Assembly (NCBI GenBank): GCA_963931925.1
Contig: OZ007581.1
Coordinates: 14,433,822 to 14,497,821 of the forward strand
From: Onchidella celtica
Lineage: Eukaryota; Mollusca; Gastropoda; Systellommatophora; Onchidiidae
Length of the DNA: 64,000 nucleotides
Direction: 5' to 3'
Under the pieces are notes generated by a model. The model was not told where the DNA came from, did no database searches, and saw only the letters and a program-made list of their open reading frames with translations. The position numbers and the translations under genes are program-made. Numbering within the stretch: the stretch's first letter is position 1; each line of letters begins with the position of its first letter. Below, piece by piece: positions 19,528 to 53,200 of the stretch.

Positions 19528-19974
19528 GTTAATCCAGCCCTGCATCAAGTAGTAAAAAGAAAGAGTGTTTCCATGTGTAGGGAACCTGCACCTGCTTCCC
19601 GGTGAAAATGAAAATATTCTTTCCATTCCACTATTTGAACGGTTTTTGACGTGTCCATGCCCGTTTCCGTGGCGCTCCCAGACACAAGAAAACACCCTTT
19701 CCTTTTACTGTTTGATGGATTTTTATGTTTCCATTTAAGTGCACACGAAGACGCAGCTTTTAGATGTTTTCAAATACATATATTACGGAGAAAACTGGGA
19801 GATGCTATTTTGGAATTTACTGTAGATTTGACCAATTTTACTTGTTTTTCGATAGAGCTTTGCAATAGGCGTTCGTTACCGTCAGTGCGTCGTACTAATA
19901 TAATATCGGTGTTTGTAGCAAAAGAGGGGTTCCGTGTTGTAGACTTCGCTTCCGGTTGATAGATTTCGTTGAAA

Positions 19975-22900
19975 ATGGCTATGTCCGACTACGGTTCTAA
20001 GACGCTCACCCAGCTAAAAGAAGAATGCCGGAAAAGATGCATCAAAATAAGTGGGAAAAAGGCAGAATTGGTATCGAGGTAAGTAACTTTAATATTTTAA
20101 ACTAACGAATCTATAATGAATCGGGCGTATTTTGCAATATGCCGCTATAGATACATCTAGCTAGCAGTCGCCAGTAGTAGCAATCATGATCTACATCTAC
20201 AAGATAGATCTAGACTCTAGATCTAGTAATAGTAGTTTTTGTTTACAGTTTACGATTAAAATCACATATATATATAGATCTAGGTCTAATTATTATTAAC
20301 TTCCTGCAGTTATCATGAATATAATGGTAGACTAGGATCTAGTTCTAGCTGCATGAGATTCAATGGTGAATGAATTCAATGAGTCATAAATTTAGAAAAA
20401 GACCTCTGTGTTAATGGGAGGACTTCTGAATGCATTCCATAGCTCGACAAGTGCATAGGCATTGTCAGATTGATATGTAAGGACGTGAGGGTCTAGTCAG
20501 TTTGTACCATCGAGGCCATAGGCCGATGTTCGTCTGGGCAGTAGTCAGATTGACATATCAGGGAAAGCTGCCGGGGTAACATAACTATTATTTTCACTCG
20601 GGCTTTGGAACGCATTCGGAAGTCCTTCCGTGTTAATAAAGGTACTTAAATTTTATCGAAGATATTGTAGTTTTCTAGTCTGAGTGTCAGAAAATGCATA
20701 TTTAGACAGTGTAACAAGACATATAAATTGACAAGACCTGTTAAAAATATTACTCTTGAAGTGAACACCATGTTGAACTGTTTTATCTCACATCTATCCA
20801 CTTGACATTAAACTAAAAAGCCAAATCACAAATGCCAAATGATGCTATTGCATTTTCTAAGTTTAAAAAAAAAAAGTTAAGCCTTTCCTGATTTATTTTC
20901 AGGCTGGAGTTCTTTGACAAATGTCATATAGGGAAAAGCAGTGACCAAAAAGTGGACTATGTTATGGCTGTCCCAAGCAGAGGTTCATACAAAGATATTC
21001 ACACTGATGTCATTCTGCCTCCTGTTACTGCAGAATCAGTGAAGGCATACCTGTCAGCCATGCATTTAACAGTAAAACAGAGTGATCGGGAGCTGTATGA
21101 GGAGAGACATATTTTATTTTTACATTCATCAGAACTGCTGCCTCCCCTCACATACATTTATGCACAAGTGAGAGCCAGCAAGAAAGTGAAAGTGAGATAC
21201 TTTGTTGATATTTCACTGGGAAAAGTAGGAACCATAGAACAGTGCCAGTGCGAGTGCAGCATTGGCATGGGACCAAATGCTGCATGCAAGCATGTTGTTA
21301 TGGTCCTCCTAGGCCTGGTTGACCATCACAACAAGTTACCGATCATTACGTATGAAACATGTACACAGAGGCTACAAACTTTTCATCAACCCAAGCCACA
21401 CACGGGTTCACCAATAAAAGCAAAAAGTCTCGACGTTAAGGTGAAAATGCATATCGATGATCCAAGGCCACAAGAATGTCAGAACGTCACATCGTATGCT
21501 TCACACTTCAGAAATGTCGTCATGGCTGACAAAAGTGCCAGCAGCATGCCAATTTTTCAACTGTATGCTCCTGCCAACACCAGAGCAGTGGCCATGGATC
21601 ACACGTATTCAGCTCTTGGCATAGAAGAACACTTTCTGAGGCAGCTGGGACTCATAACCATGAGTGAATCCCAACGCAAGGTAAGTGCTGAGCCTTGAAG
21701 TTCACTGTTCAGTTTTGCTAAACATTATTGCTGGGCAGTTGAATTATCTCCTTCTGTAACTCCGGATTTCCCCCGTCAGATATAATTTGTGAAAATGGAC
21801 TAAATGTAGTATCAGAATTTTCTATTAATATTATTAGGCATTTGACAGATTAAGATTAATTTAAAAATAATCACTGTTCACAAGGTAATTATATGCATGG
21901 GTTTGATGAAAAGCCAGTGTTTCATATGATTTCTACTGAAAATACTGTGATTAGATCAGACCTATGAATTCAGAACTTGATCATAAATTTATGGTAATGG
22001 TAAGCAGTTGATGATATAAATATTTATTGTTCAGTAATTTTATTTTCCACACAGACATTAAATATGGCAACTCTGCACCAGGCAGGCTCATCAAAGTGGC
22101 TTGCAGAAAGGAGGATAAGGCTAACTGCATCACAGTTTGGACAGATCTGCAAGGCCAGAGACAAGAACAAGGTAGGCTTATTATTAATGAACTGCAGTTT
22201 ATTTTTGTGCATCAGACTGTTGTTAAATTACCACCTCAATGAAAACTTTATAAAATTATGTTATCCAAATTTTTGAGATCTAATCCATCTTGTTGCCAGT
22301 TCATAGGAAAAAAAATAGGGAAGGTTTCCAATATTTAGTATTAATAAGCCTCTATAAATAACTGTGTCAGTCTTTTAAAAATAACTGATAGCTGACATTG
22401 ACATGTTAAATTATTGTCTTTTTTATTTGGAGATTTTGGGAGTATAATTCAGTACTATATATATATAATAAGTTTCATGTTCAATTGATCTCACATCCCA
22501 CAGTGCTTTTGGCAATATAACACTAACTCGACTAACAATAATACATGCAGGTTTTTTTTATTTTTTTTTACTTTTCTAATGACTGCATTTTTATTGTTTT
22601 TGCAGCACTTGGATTTAATAATGCCTGTAACGTCTCTGTGCACTTACAGTAAAATAAATGGAAGGCTTCATCTTTAAATATCTTTTACTTTTAGCACCCA
22701 AACAACCAACACCAGTTAGGATGCAAGCGATTATATATGTTTTTTTTTTTTTTTCCTGGGCTCATGTCCTCTGATCTTTTGTTGATAATCTATCTGAAAT
22801 AGAGGCTTCAACTGTTCGAACCATTCAATTCACACAATTGGCTTGGTAACACAGAAGTCTGCTAATGAGTTTATGCATTTTTGTTTTCATTTTGACAGAT

Positions 22901-23417
22901 TTCACAGGGACTTCTGAATCCTCTGGACTTGAGTCATCTGCCTGCAATAGCACATGGGAAGAAATACGAACATGTTGCAATTAAGCAGTTTATGGAACTG
23001 ACCAGATGCACGGTTGAAAAGTCAGGTCTACAAGTGCACAAAGTTTTTCCATTCATCGGTGCATCACCAGATGGTTTAATAATTGATAGTGACCATAAAA
23101 GCGTTGTAGAGGTTAAGTGTCCCTATGCAAGTAGGGATAGGAGTATTTGTGCTGAGACAGTGCCCTATCTGAAACAGACCGAACAGGGTCTGGAATTATG
23201 TTCTAATCATAATCATTTTTTCCAGATTCAAGGACAGATGGCATGCTGTGAAGCAAATAAATGTTATTTTGTCATTTACACCTTGAATGACTTAAAAGTC
23301 ATTGAAGTGAAAAGAAATGATGAATTTATAAAGAAAATGTTGGATGAATTGATATCCTTCTTCAATGACTACTTCAAAACTTCCCTCTTGGATAAATTTT
23401 TATACAAAGACTGTTAG
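19975..23417 (+). CDS. SAP-SWIM-YqaJ nuclease, four exons, intact
   Basis: Exons 19975-20078, 20903-21680, 22055-22171 and 22899-23417 have GT/AG borders and join in frame to 505 residues ending at a TAG. Residues about 10-37 form a SAP DNA-binding motif (LTQLKEECRKRCIKISGKKA). A SWIM zinc motif follows with C151, C153, C163 and H165. Residues about 300-470 are a YqaJ/lambda-exonuclease-type nuclease: the entry motif WLAERRIRLTASQFG, then E357 (GKKYEH), D391 (ASPDG) and E404-x-K406 (VVEVKCP), the metal-binding residues of the fold. The start ATG (AAAATGG) lies 40 bases inside the left inverted repeat. A transposon accessory nuclease is inferred from the facing transposase gene; a domesticated host gene is the alternative. 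The SAP exon is cleanly separate, so it could have been added later. Confidence 0.85.
20160..20345. repeat. Cluster of TAGATCTA-type palindromes
   Basis: Intron 1 of the nuclease gene contains repeated AGATCTAG/TCTAGATC units. Similar clusters occur at 26955-27165, 28315-28425 and 28640-28674. Confidence 0.6.
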
Positions 23418-25030
23418 CTTTTAACTTTTAATATTTCATTTTCTAAAGTAATCTAAATTTTCTTTCACATGAAAATTATGATGTTTGCTTTGCAGAAGTT
23501 TAAAAATTGCAGTGATTCTGTACTGTTTTATTAAACATTTCTGATAAACTTTACTGTAAACTGTAACAAGTAACACAACATACTGTAAATGATAAAAATT
23601 GAAAGTCATGCCATGGTGGTACGTGTATTGGAAAAACAGAATTAGCATTTAATATAGTAACATGAAATTTATTTCAGTGCACATGTCTTGTTTGACAGTA
23701 ATACATTTATTATAATTTCACATGGGCATAATAACTATACAAATTTTACAATCTTTCAATCTATCTAAGGCAGAAATGTGCCCAGAAATTTATGTGAGAT
23801 AATGAGTAATATGGAACAACAGTACATGTATTACTTTTTTGTGCACCAAGCTCAAGAAAGTTTTTTTCTCTCTCCTGAGAGATCTCTCAATCTACAGAAC
23901 ACACAAGATGCGTTTTGTGACTTACAATGACAATTCATTTTTTGTTACAGAAATAACTCAGTATCGTTTTTTTTTTAATTTTACTGTATTAATTTTTTAA
24001 AGGGCTGCATATCTTGTTGTAGACTTTCTAATGCTCCTTTTTGAATTAAAAAGCACAAAGGCGGATTTGATATTTCTTAAGTGTTTGCTTTTACAACTCT
24101 CTAAGTATATTTATCATAAATTTATGTATTCTCATGGAAGAGCTGGTATAGTAATATTGTAATAAAAAGATGGTCATGTCATATTTTTTTTTTTTTTTTG
24201 GCCATGATAAAAATAAGTTGCCTTTATGTTTTGTATTCTATATGTTTAAATATGTTCAATTAATTTAAAATCATTTGGTCTCCCACATCATCAATGCATT
24301 TTTCCATTTTTGATCTCAAAGAACAGTGATCTTCCAAAGTGGATGACATGTATTTCCATATATAATACAGTGTACATGTAATTATAAATCATTGTCATAA
24401 AAATAATAAATAAGAGCAAAATTGTTGTTTGACAATCTGCAGTACTGGCTGACAAGATTCTGAATAATAGAGGACACTGAAGATGAAACATTAGTTATTT
24501 TCAGTTTGCAATCACTAAAGATAAGATAAGATATGACTTTATTATCCTGTTTCCAGGAAATTTGTTGTCACTGCATTCAGTAACAGCACAACAGCAAATA
24601 CAATATATCTAAAACCTACAGGTCTTTAAGGCACACATGCACATTGCTTAAACAGCCTTACCAACAAGTAAGAACATTGCTCACACACACACGCACACAC
24701 ACAAACACACACACTGTAAGAACAATCCATTAGGAAAAAAACTAACAACAGCATACTACATCAGGAAACTCTGCTATTTTGAATTGCGGATGGCAAAAAA
24801 GATCGTCTATAGCGCTCTCGGTTTGTTTTTAAATACAGTATTCGTCCACTTCTTTGGGATCGGACTATCTGATGGAAAGAGTAACACCAGTTATGCAGTA
24901 TGATTCTAATCTTTTGAAATATGTCATGGTCCAATAGGCCTGCATTACTATGTCAATGTAGCATAATAATATAGATGTCTCTACATAACATCAGGTTAAT
25001 TTAATGAGAAACTGGCATCTTTCACCATCT
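23418..25030. other. Interval between the two convergent transposon genes
   Basis: AT-rich, with no frames that match proteins. It holds the 3' ends of both genes; AATAAA-like sites on the + strand (for example near 24160) could serve the nuclease gene. A CA repeat lies at 24680-24715 and poly-T near 24185. Confidence 0.5.
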
Positions 25031-26361
25031 TTAAGCATACTGTGAAACAACATTGTTTCTGAAATTTGTCAACATCAAACATACAAAAATAATATCAGTG
25101 GCAATATTTGTTTCAGTTGCATTTAGTGATGACTTAAGGATTTTGTATACCTTTACATTACCTATTATCCTTTCAACATGAACGCGTTTGCTTGAAATAC
25201 ATCTATCTTCCGCAACTGCTCCTGGTGTCATTCTGTTTTTCTTTTTGAAAAAATTCGGCATGTTAATCTTAACATCTTTAGTTCGAAACATGTCTTGGAT
25301 ATTAAAACCTTTGTCACCCATGATGGAATCCCCTGCCTCTACTTTGTCCAATAGACTGCATCTTTCTACAATCTGCCTGTCACTAGCTGCCCCCCCCCCA
25401 TAAGCTTCTGAACATAATGATATTTGCCCCCCCCTGGCGTTACACCCACTAAGACTTTAACAGCATTCCTATGCTTATATGTAGAAAATGTTGCTCTCTG
25501 GGCAGTTGGGTTTGATGGTCTCTGCACTGGTATTTCTGTCCCATCAATTATTACTCTTGTGTCAGGATATTTCATCTTGAAATCAAGTGGGCAGTCATGA
25601 TCAACAATGTATTTGTGAGCCCATGTGTTTATTTCTCCCCACTGCTTGGAACAAAATTTAACCCACGTATAACAAATATTGCGCACAGTAAATTCTGAAA
25701 GACAAAACATGTTTGATAATTCTGCATTGCAATAATGATGTCTCAGATACACTAGCATATTAACAAGAAAAGCAGTCTGGGGAACCACAGAATCAATACT
25801 TTTCTTTGTAAAGATAGACTTAATATTATTCACATTTGGACCTAAAGAATGAAAAACTGTCATGCACCTATCAAAATTGGGTAATCCAGTGTAATGCAGG
25901 CAATCTTTCGGTGAATATCTGATCCTATCAATCGACACATAAGTCATGAGGATGCGTAAAAAAATGCTGCTGGTAAATAATTGAATTTAATTCATTTTCA
26001 TCTTTATCATCTTCATCATAGGGAACTCTCTTTACAGTAAATTTTTCCTTGGTCAAATCGACATCACTCTCCTCCTCATTATCACCTTCGTCAAGATCAA
26101 GAGAAATGACCTCCCGTGAATTAACTAAAGAAATTGTAGGTGTATCACAGATGCCTTCACCACCAGATGATATATCTGGTGGTGAAGGCTCAGACATTAC
26201 AGCATTACAATAAGACATTTCCACAAACTCCGACACAGGAATGTCCTCCTCAAGATACACCTTTTCTGCCTCCTGTCTTTCAATTTCCCTTTCTTGTTTG
26301 GCAATCTGCTCTTCCTCATCCCGTCTTATCTCTCTCAGGCGTCGTCTTTGGTCCCTAGGCT
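25031..26361 (-). pseudogene. IS5/DDE_Tnp_4 transposase part (ISL2EU-like), frame-broken
   Basis: The catalytic part of the facing gene. From 26361 down, an acidic, Glu/Arg-rich coiled region (RRRLREIRRDEEEQIAKQER) leads into the DDE fold: YSPKDCLHYTGLPNF, then the first aspartate in VIIDGTEIP, the second in GDSIMGDKGF and the glutamate in HVERIIGNVK, ending in a stop at 25031. Two frame breaks occur. One is at an A7 run (25958-25964) between the coiled region and the core. The other is at a C8 run (25427-25434); changing its length by one restores the classic GGQIS...YGG...ASDRQIVE passage. All other positions read as conserved transposase. The join to the THAP exon is uncertain: the donor at 27180 would match in phase with an AG just before 26361. 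Confidence 0.8.
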
Positions 26362-27180
26362 CTTCAGTAAGGGCGTGAGGCTGAAATATTTGTGTGAAAG
26401 TATAAGTATTTTCATATTTAATACATGTAGTATTAAATAATACTACTAAAGGAGTAAAATAGGCCTTTAGAAAGACATTATTTAGTAATATTACTACACA
26501 ACGTGAAATTTGTTCAGATCTGATTTCTTCTATGCAAAGAAAAAAAAAAGTCTTGATATCCCTGGTTTGTATGCAATTATGTATTGTGTAGCCCTTCCCC
26601 TTTTCCGCGTACTCAAACATAGCAATTTAGCATACAAATTAGCAGCTGAGTGAGCAAATTATTTTTTTGTCAATCTTGAGAATCATTTTCAGTAACAGGC
26701 TAGTGTAAATCTGAGCAAATCGCCAATAGAGCAATCTTCACTACTTTCAAAATCTAAAACCATGTTTTGGTTGTCGTTTGAATACACATTACAATGTTTT
26801 TTAGTGACAGCCTACCGAATGACTAAGGTCAGCACCCTAACCTTAAGTGAAAATCACGTGTCAAACACACACACACACACAAATTAATGTCCCTATCACA
26901 TAGAATTCATACACATACAAATTATTTGTTTCATTTTCAGGTTAAAAGGATAAGAGATAGTATAGGATCTGGACTAGATCTGTAGATCTAGGCTCAAGAA
27001 ATGACTACGTTTGGGGTTGGGGAAAAGGACAGGGTCGTAGGTTTAAGGTTGGGAACTGACATGATAGGCAGGCCATACAGAACTCTTCCTGTTTTGGTAA
27101 TGGTATAGACGCAATGCAACTAGATCTAGATATCTAGAACTTGACTAGTCTAGACTAGATCTACATGTCCATGTACTTAC
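26362..27180. other. Putative intron between THAP exon and transposase core
   Basis: Non-coding between the THAP exon and the acidic region, with a CA repeat (26862-26881) and an AGATCT-rich block (26955-27165). An extra small exon here cannot be excluded, because a simple acceptor (TATTTCAG at about 26381) is out of phase with the THAP donor. Confidence 0.4.
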
Positions 27181-27379
27181 TTCTCCATGTTGGTGTCGAT
27201 GAATCCACAAAGTCATCTTCACTAAAGTGTTTTGCACATAAAACAGAACTGTGGGTCCAGCTCCATGCCTTTCTTCTCCTGTTGACAAACGCAATCCATT
27301 TTTTCTTGACTTTGTCGTCTTTGGGGAAGCGATATCCACCCTCTGTATGACAGAGAGGTATAACGCAGTAGTTCACCAT
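27181..27379 (-). CDS. THAP zinc-finger exon of the transposase gene
   Basis: Starts at the ATG at 27379 and reads MVNYCVIPLCHTEGGYRFPK, then an Arg/Lys/Trp-rich stretch, then SSVLCAKHFSEDDF. The C-x4-C ... C-x2-H spacing and the FP after the second cysteine are the THAP C2CH finger, which binds DNA in P-element-like and ISL2EU-like transposases and in THAP host factors. The exon ends in a GT donor (GTAAGTAC) in phase 1 and lies 25 bases inside the right inverted repeat. As the N-terminal DNA-binding domain it would recognise the element's ends. Confidence 0.85.
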
Positions 27380-27467
27380 TTTACCCCAGCAGAACAAATG
27401 GCTACCGAACCCCTCTTTTGCTCGGGCAAATCAGGGGAGATAATTTGAGGTTACGGATGCCTATTGC

Positions 27468-50238: not shown

Positions 50239-53200
50239 AATTGAAAAGAATGCCAGTATAGATGAAACTCGTGTTTAATTTTTTTTAAAATCAAAGTAAA
50301 AGTAAGGTTTAATTTTTCTCAGTGACTTTGATTTTCGGCTGTCTATTGAATAAGGCATGCTGAATTATATTATATTAATATTATGAAGGCCAGGGGTTGG
50401 CAAGTGTTTAGGCTGTGGCTGACTGCTCCTGAGACTTGCATTTGTTTAGGAAAGTTCTGAGACAAAACAAGCTTTCCATGACATTTAAGAAAAACAAAAT
50501 TTGTTTCTGAATAGCATCCAATGACTTTTTATCACAAGTATCTTGGCATCTGATGTGTGAATGCTGGGAGAAGAAAACAACTGATTTGACAGAAAATCCT
50601 AATCATTTTCAGAGATGTCACTTCCTTCTGCTAGCGTTACATTCTATTGTCTTGCTCTATCCTGGCACAATGTAACCCCCATCATGTGGGCACACTTTCT
50701 CCAAACTCAAACTCAAATTCTGGAAACCAAGTGCTCTCTGGACATGCTCTGGAAAGTTCAGTGAAGAGAAATCTCCTCCGGAAAACTAGAATTGTGTACA
50801 CCTTATTTTGTGGACCAATCCACCTCGAAAAATTCAGGAAAGTTTTTAAGGCTGATGTGGCATCTTTGCATTTTATTTTTCCTCCCTTCAACTGCCAATA
50901 CTCACTCCAGTTTCTAAGTATGTTATTGGGTATTTGTCATATTGTTGTATGTGCATTTTTACTTTTTTGAGAAAATAAGGGTTGAAAATTGTGTAAAATC
51001 AGGGCCAAAACGTACATAACATTACCATATTAGAGTCTACATCACAAACTCATATCTTGGAAATTTTAAATCATTGGAATGACACTTATAAATACACTAG
51101 CTGAGGTCCCCGGCCCTGCCTGGGATAAATCGGTTTGAATATTGGTTTCAGTTCTGGGTGGTTATTATGGACCTGCTTCATCTGGCCTGTTCCTATTTGG
51201 TTATTTTATTTTTGTTTGTTTGTTTTTAAATAAGTCTTACTGCTCTGCCTTTGTGAGTTGACACCCTGCGCATCCCGTACAACAGCATGATTTGCGCACG
51301 GGTTAGTGTGTTTGATAGTGAACACATCGCAGGAAGTGATAACGTAACCTTAAAATGGCAAACCATGACTCGAAATAGATCTAAATGATGGCGAAACAAT
51401 AAATTTCCAATAAAAAAAACTACACCGATTTGAGACTTCTATTAAAAACTGTGCACCCTTACATCCATTCTGATGCACCATATATATAAAATTTGGAGTC
51501 TTGAGTGTTGAGTGGTTCAGAAGCCTTTTGCAACGAAAAATCTCAAGTCCACAAATATATATAGTATAGATTATGAAATTAGGAATGAAAGAACCACTTT
51601 CATGACAAAACCTTAAAATTGGCAAAATGTCACATATGACAATATGGCAAATACCCCTCGATATCTTATTTTCATGTAAAAGTGAATTTTGTGGCCAAAA
51701 AAAGAAAAATGCACAAAAAAAAATAATTAAAAAATGCTTTTTTTTTTTCATCATTATAATGTACCTGCTGTGAAGCATATGAGTACAATATTTTCACAGA
51801 TGAGATTATAACCATGTCTAAATTTAAAGTTGAACAACAGTGGACTCTTCACCAACTACCATTCTCCATAACATTTTCATCTTTCTACATGGCAGGCTAC
51901 ATCAATGTCCAGAATATATGACAGTTCAGAAAGATGTTCGCCATTTTATTCTACATAACACTGTTAAGTAAAATCATATAGAATCTATGTGTAAAGTCTT
52001 AACTTTGTGCAAAAAGGATGAAAAAGTTACTGAATATTTAAAGCTTTGAAAAATCTTCAGACAAAAATAATACACGTCACCAGGTTTAATAAATGTAATG
52101 TGGATGCAACATGCTAGAGTGAAGCACAACTTTCTTCAGCTGCTCCAAAGCACTATGAAAAACAGTGTCGTCAGTATGTAGGTTTTCATCTTTTTATGTC
52201 AACTAAGACGATTGGTTTGCAATGCCATCAAGAAACCAGAAATAAGGTACATTTTGTTTCATTCTGAACGGGTCTTGATGTCTTGGCCAATGCAAATTGT
52301 GCTAGTCCATGTAGGTTTGAGATTTTGTAATGTTGAAAAATTAAAATCCATGACATGACATTTCAAGATCACAATAATTACTGATGGTGTTCTTGCAAAA
52401 TTTCCTCTGCAGGAACTGTTAGGAGCCAAAAGCAAAATATAAGTCGTTGGCCGACTTTGATTTTAGTTTTAACGAGGTTCAAACAGTTGACCCAGAAAAT
52501 GTATACATTACAACCCAATTTGGATCCACATTGGTTAGTGATGTCATGACATTTACTTTCGCATGGCAGTTTATTCTCACTACCATGGCCGATCAATAAG
52601 TTTGCCAGGAAGATCAGTAATCATTGGCTAATCCCTGTCTAAACAGGCACACAGGTACCAGCCCTGCTACGCCTTTTCAAATGCAATAAAATGGCCGTTT
52701 TTTTCAATTTCTATCATTAAACCAGCCATGAAAATTTAGGAATGTAAGATATCACTAAAAAGCTCAGTGTCTGCTCTGTAACTTTGTTTGGTTGTAACTG
52801 AATTATTCATTCACTGTTGAGCGAACTCTGAAAAGTGTGTCATTGAAACTGTGGGTGATTGCTGGGCGCTTCTCGTAGGGTCTCCCTCTGTGCTATCATT
52901 CTGCTCTATTCTGCGTATTGTCTTGCTGCTTCAAAGCACAGTATAGCCGTTACTGTGTTGACCTGCTTTCTCAGAACTCAAAAACTCGCATTGAAACTAA
53001 ATCTCGTGATGTCATCGTCCAATTGGTTGCTGATCAAAACTGGCTGGTGTGCGCGCCTAAGCTAAGTGACACCTTGGGATGCTGAATAAGATCTGACTCA
53101 CTCTAGCATGCATGACATTCACCTGAATAACTGAAGTACGATTCAATGAAGAAAAAATAATGCACAGTATAGTATCTAAAGAAATATAATGATTAAGAGC

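Follow-up and report, generated by a model that had tools for sequence, protein, structure and literature searches.

The closest described relatives of the element reported here are the ISL2EU transposons, which duplicate AT within an A|AT|T target, carry a THAP domain on their transposase and encode an extra gene whose function was given as unknown in the part of a 2015 superfamily survey that treats them (PMC4482050). We analysed a 64,000-nucleotide stretch of the genome of the gastropod Onchidella celtica (assembly GCA_963931925.1, contig OZ007581.1, positions 14,433,822–14,497,821; hereafter the window, to which positions below refer unless a contig is named) and found a 7.6-kb DNA transposon at 19867–27462. 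It shows an AT duplication, a transposase with DDE and THAP domains (broken in the window copy) and a second gene with a YqaJ domain. The element itself is a known type of animal transposon (ISL2EU), in line with an earlier sequence-only reading that had recognised a two-gene DNA transposon of this kind. With a probability of roughly 85%, we regard it as a young, low-copy ISL2EU (PHIS) DNA transposon whose window clade was most likely moved by a transposase made elsewhere in the genome.

Copies, ends and target site of the element

A search with the whole block in the O. celtica assembly (1.14 Gb, 43 contigs) revealed near-complete copies with 95%–99% identity on many contigs; as 23 of 3867 first-look candidates were scored, the copies found are a minimum. 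The left 200 bp gave 21 matches, 20 of which cover the full stretch or lack only its first base (at least 94% identity) and one of which spans 44 bp, and the right 200 bp gave 24, including 19 with at least 98% identity over the whole stretch. No swarms of short derivatives were found when the genome was searched with the left 200 bp and the right end. Seventeen copies were fetched and 16 aligned; L024 was omitted because its left end is missing, and only its right end and its frames were used. The 16 long copies lie at different places, with unlike flanks and with the identical ends that the sequence-only reading had anticipated for a transposon. An intact nuclease gene with clean introns would also fit two ordinary single-copy host genes that face each other by chance. 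However, a block that is repeated genome-wide with fixed ends in different flanks, and for which empty sites exist, refutes this explanation, to which we assign practically no probability.

The borders were placed by comparing the genome copies at 16 left and 16 right ends (the right-end count takes in L024 and leaves out L019). Copies start with AGGC and end with GCCT, set between AAT and ATT: the left junction reads AAT|AGGC in 16/16 copies and the right junction GCCT|ATT in 15/16, with GCCT|AAT in the remaining one, while a C precedes the AAT in 14 of the 16. The block first drawn from the sequence (19862–27467) does enclose the transposon, but its outer TGCAAT/ATTGCA is target-site DNA and not part of the element. 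The two copies of the AT target-site duplication occupy 19865–19866 and 27463–27464. Just inside them lie the terminal inverted repeats, AGGCGTTCGTTACC at 19867–19880 (+ strand) and its partner at 27449–27462 (− strand), which match at 11 of 14 bases. A second, subterminal inverted block of 19 nt pairs 19917–19935 (+ strand) with 27404–27422 (− strand) at 95% complementarity.

Copy L012 sits in a dispersed repeat, and all six fetched empty copies of this repeat read TTAATTGG, which is the filled site minus one AT. Because these empty sites equal the filled sequence less one AT, the element added a single AT at AATT, which makes A|AT|T the target and AT the duplicated sequence. Two of the six empty copies differ by one base three positions before the AATT, and all six carry four extra bases ~50–60 positions upstream of the site. 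They were the best six of 40 places scored among 298 candidates for a six-site query; all 40 fell on the L012 part, and none matched the other five joined flanks. A TA duplication and the absence of any duplication are both ruled out, as under either the empty sites should be 2 bp longer than they are. For copy L016, an empty relative of the target of equal length and with one base changed was found near position 51345 (− strand) of the window, where only ~10 left-flank bases align. The window also resembles the right flank of this copy at 51096–51345 (− strand).

The nuclease and transposase genes

As proposed from the sequence, two convergent genes lie between the inverted ends, a nuclease gene on the + strand and a THAP/DDE transposase gene on the − strand, arranged tail to tail. 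The nuclease gene is indeed intact, with four exons, GT-AG borders throughout and 505 codons lacking an internal stop. Exon 1 (19975–20078) encodes the SAP domain (6e-9), exon 2 (20903–21680) a SWIM-like zinc motif of the form CxC...CxH, exon 3 (22055–22171) the start of the YqaJ domain and exon 4 (22899–23417) the YqaJ core with the motifs GASPDGL and EVKCP (YqaJ, 1.4e-16; 61.5 bits, cut-off 22). Of the Pfam domains that had been named beforehand, SAP, YqaJ, THAP and DDE_Tnp_4 were matched, but SWIM, at 13.1 bits, stayed below its cut-off of 19.6; the CxC...CxH motif, which we take to be that of SWIM, is present.

Exon 4 resembles the phage exonucleases LHK (2e-4) and lambda (0.004) as well as Mimivirus R354 (0.002). 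The SPDGL and E-KCP motifs of this exon, which presumably hold the catalytic residues, align with motifs of the LHK and lambda enzymes. The nuclease matches 26 phage records, none of which covers >80% of the query, and the ten that were listed align to the YqaJ part. Two relatives with 32% and 26% identity were found on viral contigs; one of them adjoins a putative annealase gene, recognised by eye. A predicted structure of exon 4 was not used (mean predicted local distance difference test score, 39). From these motifs and matches, the SAP-SWIM-YqaJ protein is predicted to be a lambda-exonuclease-type nuclease. LHK and lambda Exo are like exon 4 in sequence and motifs and pair with an annealase, whereas no annealase was found among the element pieces scanned with Pfam. 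Unlike these phage exonucleases, the nuclease of the element has added SAP and SWIM modules.

The transposase gene consists of an exon with an ATG, a splice donor and a THAP zinc finger (27181–27379, − strand; 6.3e-10) and a disrupted second exon (25031–26377, − strand, exact acceptor uncertain). The latter encodes a linker, a weak helix-turn-helix (HTH) region (HTH_Tnp_4, 16.9 bits against a cut-off of 27) and DDE_Tnp_4, which is matched in two pieces (2e-24 and 3e-11). The sequence-only reading had the frame broken only at two homopolymers; in fact, a 7-bp insertion at ~25942–25948 breaks it as well, in addition to length changes of two coding G tracts (25390–25399 and 25427–25434). The lengths of these tracts differ among the copies and vary even within the young clade described below, resembling a slippage hot spot inside the catalytic domain.

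Recent spread of copies with a broken transposase gene

The element moved recently, because six copies (L009, which is the window copy, L010–L013 and L025) differ by only 0.1%–0.3%, while others differ by up to ~2%. In an unrooted tree, these six young copies split from the rest with 100% support. The suggestion that the element could be recently active thus stands for its movement but not for its autonomy. The nuclease frame is open in nine of the 16 aligned copies (L009–L015, L019, and L023), and the transposase frame is broken in all 16, by plain stops and indels in the other copies. All six young copies carry the 7-bp insertion, which was therefore present before their spread. As the window clade spread after its transposase frame had been broken, it was most likely moved by a transposase made elsewhere. 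The clade L016–L018 carries common frame breaks in both genes; a moving copy therefore seems able to do without making either protein itself, and the spread of this clade with both genes broken also points to supply in trans.

Several points weigh against this reading. No complete transposase was found in the 16 aligned copies, in the three partial copies L024, L038, and L039, or in a fragment on contig C17 with an open DDE exon and a THAP exon split by an insertion. The frame survey covers these copies and not every partial copy of the family. Two shorter proteins might still provide transposase function in the young clade, and the G-tract lengths may include sequencing error. In addition, the empty L016 site agrees with the AT duplication but is weak evidence, and the resection role proposed below for the nuclease would follow from family resemblance only. 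If the THAP and DDE parts cooperated as split proteins, or if the breaks were assembly errors, the youngest copies could be self-sufficient. The DDE part is open as one frame of >300 residues in L010–L013 (317 in L011–L013), and G tracts are error-prone. However, the same 7-bp insertion occurs at six loci and hence is no random error, the stretch between the G tracts is read differently in siblings whose DDE frame is open, and other copies have plain stops and indels. We therefore consider self-sufficiency unlikely.

An apparent 186-bp deletion in L019 was an artefact of the cut: the right end of this copy lies ~1.5 kb further on, so that an insertion must divide its THAP exon. In a family copy at G000:C11:29893342-29901811, the THAP exon is interrupted by ~5 kb with a further pair of YqaJ and DDE genes, apparently an element of one family inserted into an element of another. 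An identical 6-bp in-frame deletion in nuclease exon 2 is found in the young copy L013 and the older L014, which are not sisters on the tree, perhaps due to gene conversion between copies.

To compare selection on the two genes, we estimated neutral rates for each base class from non-coding positions of the element, leaving aside gap-adjacent and simple-repeat ones. The ratio of non-synonymous to synonymous variants was 0.58 of the neutral expectation for the nuclease (44 and 28 variants, respectively; one-sided p 0.02) and 0.72 for the transposase (45 and 20; p 0.14), without a difference between the two (Fisher p 0.37). For variants found solely in open-nuclease copies, the values were 0.43 and 0.57 for nuclease and transposase, respectively (Fisher p 0.59), and for the remaining variants 0.66 and 0.86 (Fisher p 0.59); a cruder count without CpG classes gave 0.48 vs. 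0.77. Selection on the nuclease alone is suggested by these values, but its ratio is not distinct from that of the transposase, and we take nuclease retention as a hint rather than an established result. The nuclease might be kept for its own sake, in a host or anti-competitor role, with the element heading to domestication. Nine open nuclease frames against no open transposase frame, together with the reduced nuclease ratio, would fit such a history, but the transposase ratio is not different and the clade L016–L018 spread with a broken nuclease, making it quite improbable.

In the mechanism that we favour for the family, a DDE transposase would use its THAP finger and HTH to bind the ends, cut the element out and insert it at A|AT|T; the target and the AT duplication are observed, and the protein steps are modelled on the family. 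The nuclease most likely resects the excision break, so that the gap would be refilled from the sister chromatid and the donor copy kept. For the window copy, which is without a normal transposase and whose clade spread after the frame break, the transposase would likely act in trans. More tentatively, the nuclease could be a resection enzyme that biases gap repair toward copying the element back, and its usefulness could be such that elements would spread with an intact nuclease while borrowing a transposase, the lives of the two genes being partly separate; we consider this extension rather improbable.

YqaJ and DDE pairs in the genome and in known systems

The association of the two genes extends beyond this family. 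We scored 150 of 226 candidate YqaJ matches and 150 of 1393 candidate DDE_Tnp_4 matches in the genome. Ninety-four of the scored YqaJ matches have a scored DDE_Tnp_4 match no more than 5 kb away, 82 in tail-to-tail and 12 in head-to-head orientation and none on the same strand, against a chance expectation of ~0.2 by an arithmetic estimate. These counts refer to copies and not to families, and the other 56 YqaJ matches may have partners below the list cut or none. A single frame length of 316 aa is shared by 39 of the 150 YqaJ matches, the kind found in copy L028 of another family, and 35 of the 150 DDE_Tnp_4 matches have the 523-aa frame of the same kind. Judging from equal frame lengths and one opened copy, this would be one L028-type family, numerous in copies whose scores are equal and whose frames are open. 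Another YqaJ and DDE family occurs in tandem (G000:C16:42125069-42138884 and C1:24408903-24416430), with three copies at intervals of 6302 bp and two at 6316 bp.

In the two other families opened (L028 and L029), the nuclease has a SAP-like start under the cut-off (0.0036 and 0.0028, respectively), a split SWIM motif (YCCCRGG, then GYCRHV) and YqaJ, and faces a protein with HTH_Tnp_4 and DDE_Tnp_4, both over the cut-off. No THAP exon was found in the L028 and L029 stretches examined. SAP-SWIM-YqaJ may be a common plan in this genome. The SAP and SWIM domains and the THAP finger had been singled out as a reason to compare the architecture with others. Because SAP and SWIM recur in both other families, below the Pfam cut-off or as a bare motif, and THAP is already described in the ISL2EU part of the survey (PMC4482050), the architecture does not look exceptional here.

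The pairing also bears on the annotation of YqaJ genes. In a passage of a clam genome paper, expanded YqaJ and alkaline exonuclease domains are classed as endogenous viral elements (PMC7826175), whereas a scallop paper, in one passage, groups YqaJ genes with those related to transposition (PMC10225492). A viral origin would accord with the likeness of the YqaJ core to phage exonucleases and Mimivirus R354, and the sibling families also match Viral_alk_exo. However, the window YqaJ gene is enclosed by transposon ends that an AT duplication flanks, and the 94 paired matches stand beside a DDE_Tnp_4 match on the opposite strand, so that the viral label is very improbable for these genes; on the copies, empty sites and YqaJ/DDE pairing together, both the viral and the host-gene readings are rejected. 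For this genome at least, the pairing favours the transposition view of the scallop paper. In animals, YqaJ gene expansions labelled as ‘viral recombinase’ can be transposon genes and not viral relics. With an L028-type family of many open copies, the genome offers natural material to test the role of the extra ISL2EU gene. The family described here adds a clade in which the nuclease was retained but the transposase frame lost, and it is noteworthy that the newest copies combine an intact nuclease with a broken transposase.

Our literature search found no paper with both YqaJ and ‘SAP domain’; Repbase reports, which lie outside this search, may record these domains. A search linking YqaJ, SWIM, and transposon returned YqaJ passages without a SWIM domain (PMC7826175, PMC10225492).

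Finally, several related systems share single features with the element. KolobokE, as outlined in the relevant section of its description, is likewise a DDE transposon with a lambda-exonuclease-like PD-D/ExK nuclease but duplicates TTAA, whereas the element here duplicates AT and has two separate opposite genes (PMC9587614). The Spy group of PHIS has a related DDE transposase and an AT-rich target, but, according to the passages that characterise it, inserts at AAATTT without a duplication and has a single gene, in contrast to the AT duplication and two genes found here (PMC4482050; PMC11304231). PIF/Harbinger elements differ by their TWA duplication and a Myb/SANT second gene in place of YqaJ. 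The AT duplication, and for PIF/Harbinger also the YqaJ second gene, places the element outside these three groups. Compared with ISL2EU as portrayed in the corresponding part of the survey, it is longer (7.6 kb vs. an average near 4.8 kb), its ends start with AGG and not the usual GG, with 14-bp repeats matching at 11/14 bases, and its nuclease carries SAP and SWIM, which that part does not mention (PMC4482050). In common with ISL2EU, which is published there only from animals, it has one gene with THAP and DDE domains (its HTH match staying below the cut-off), one YqaJ gene and an AT duplication in an A|AT|T target, shown here by both flanks and empty sites (PMC4482050).
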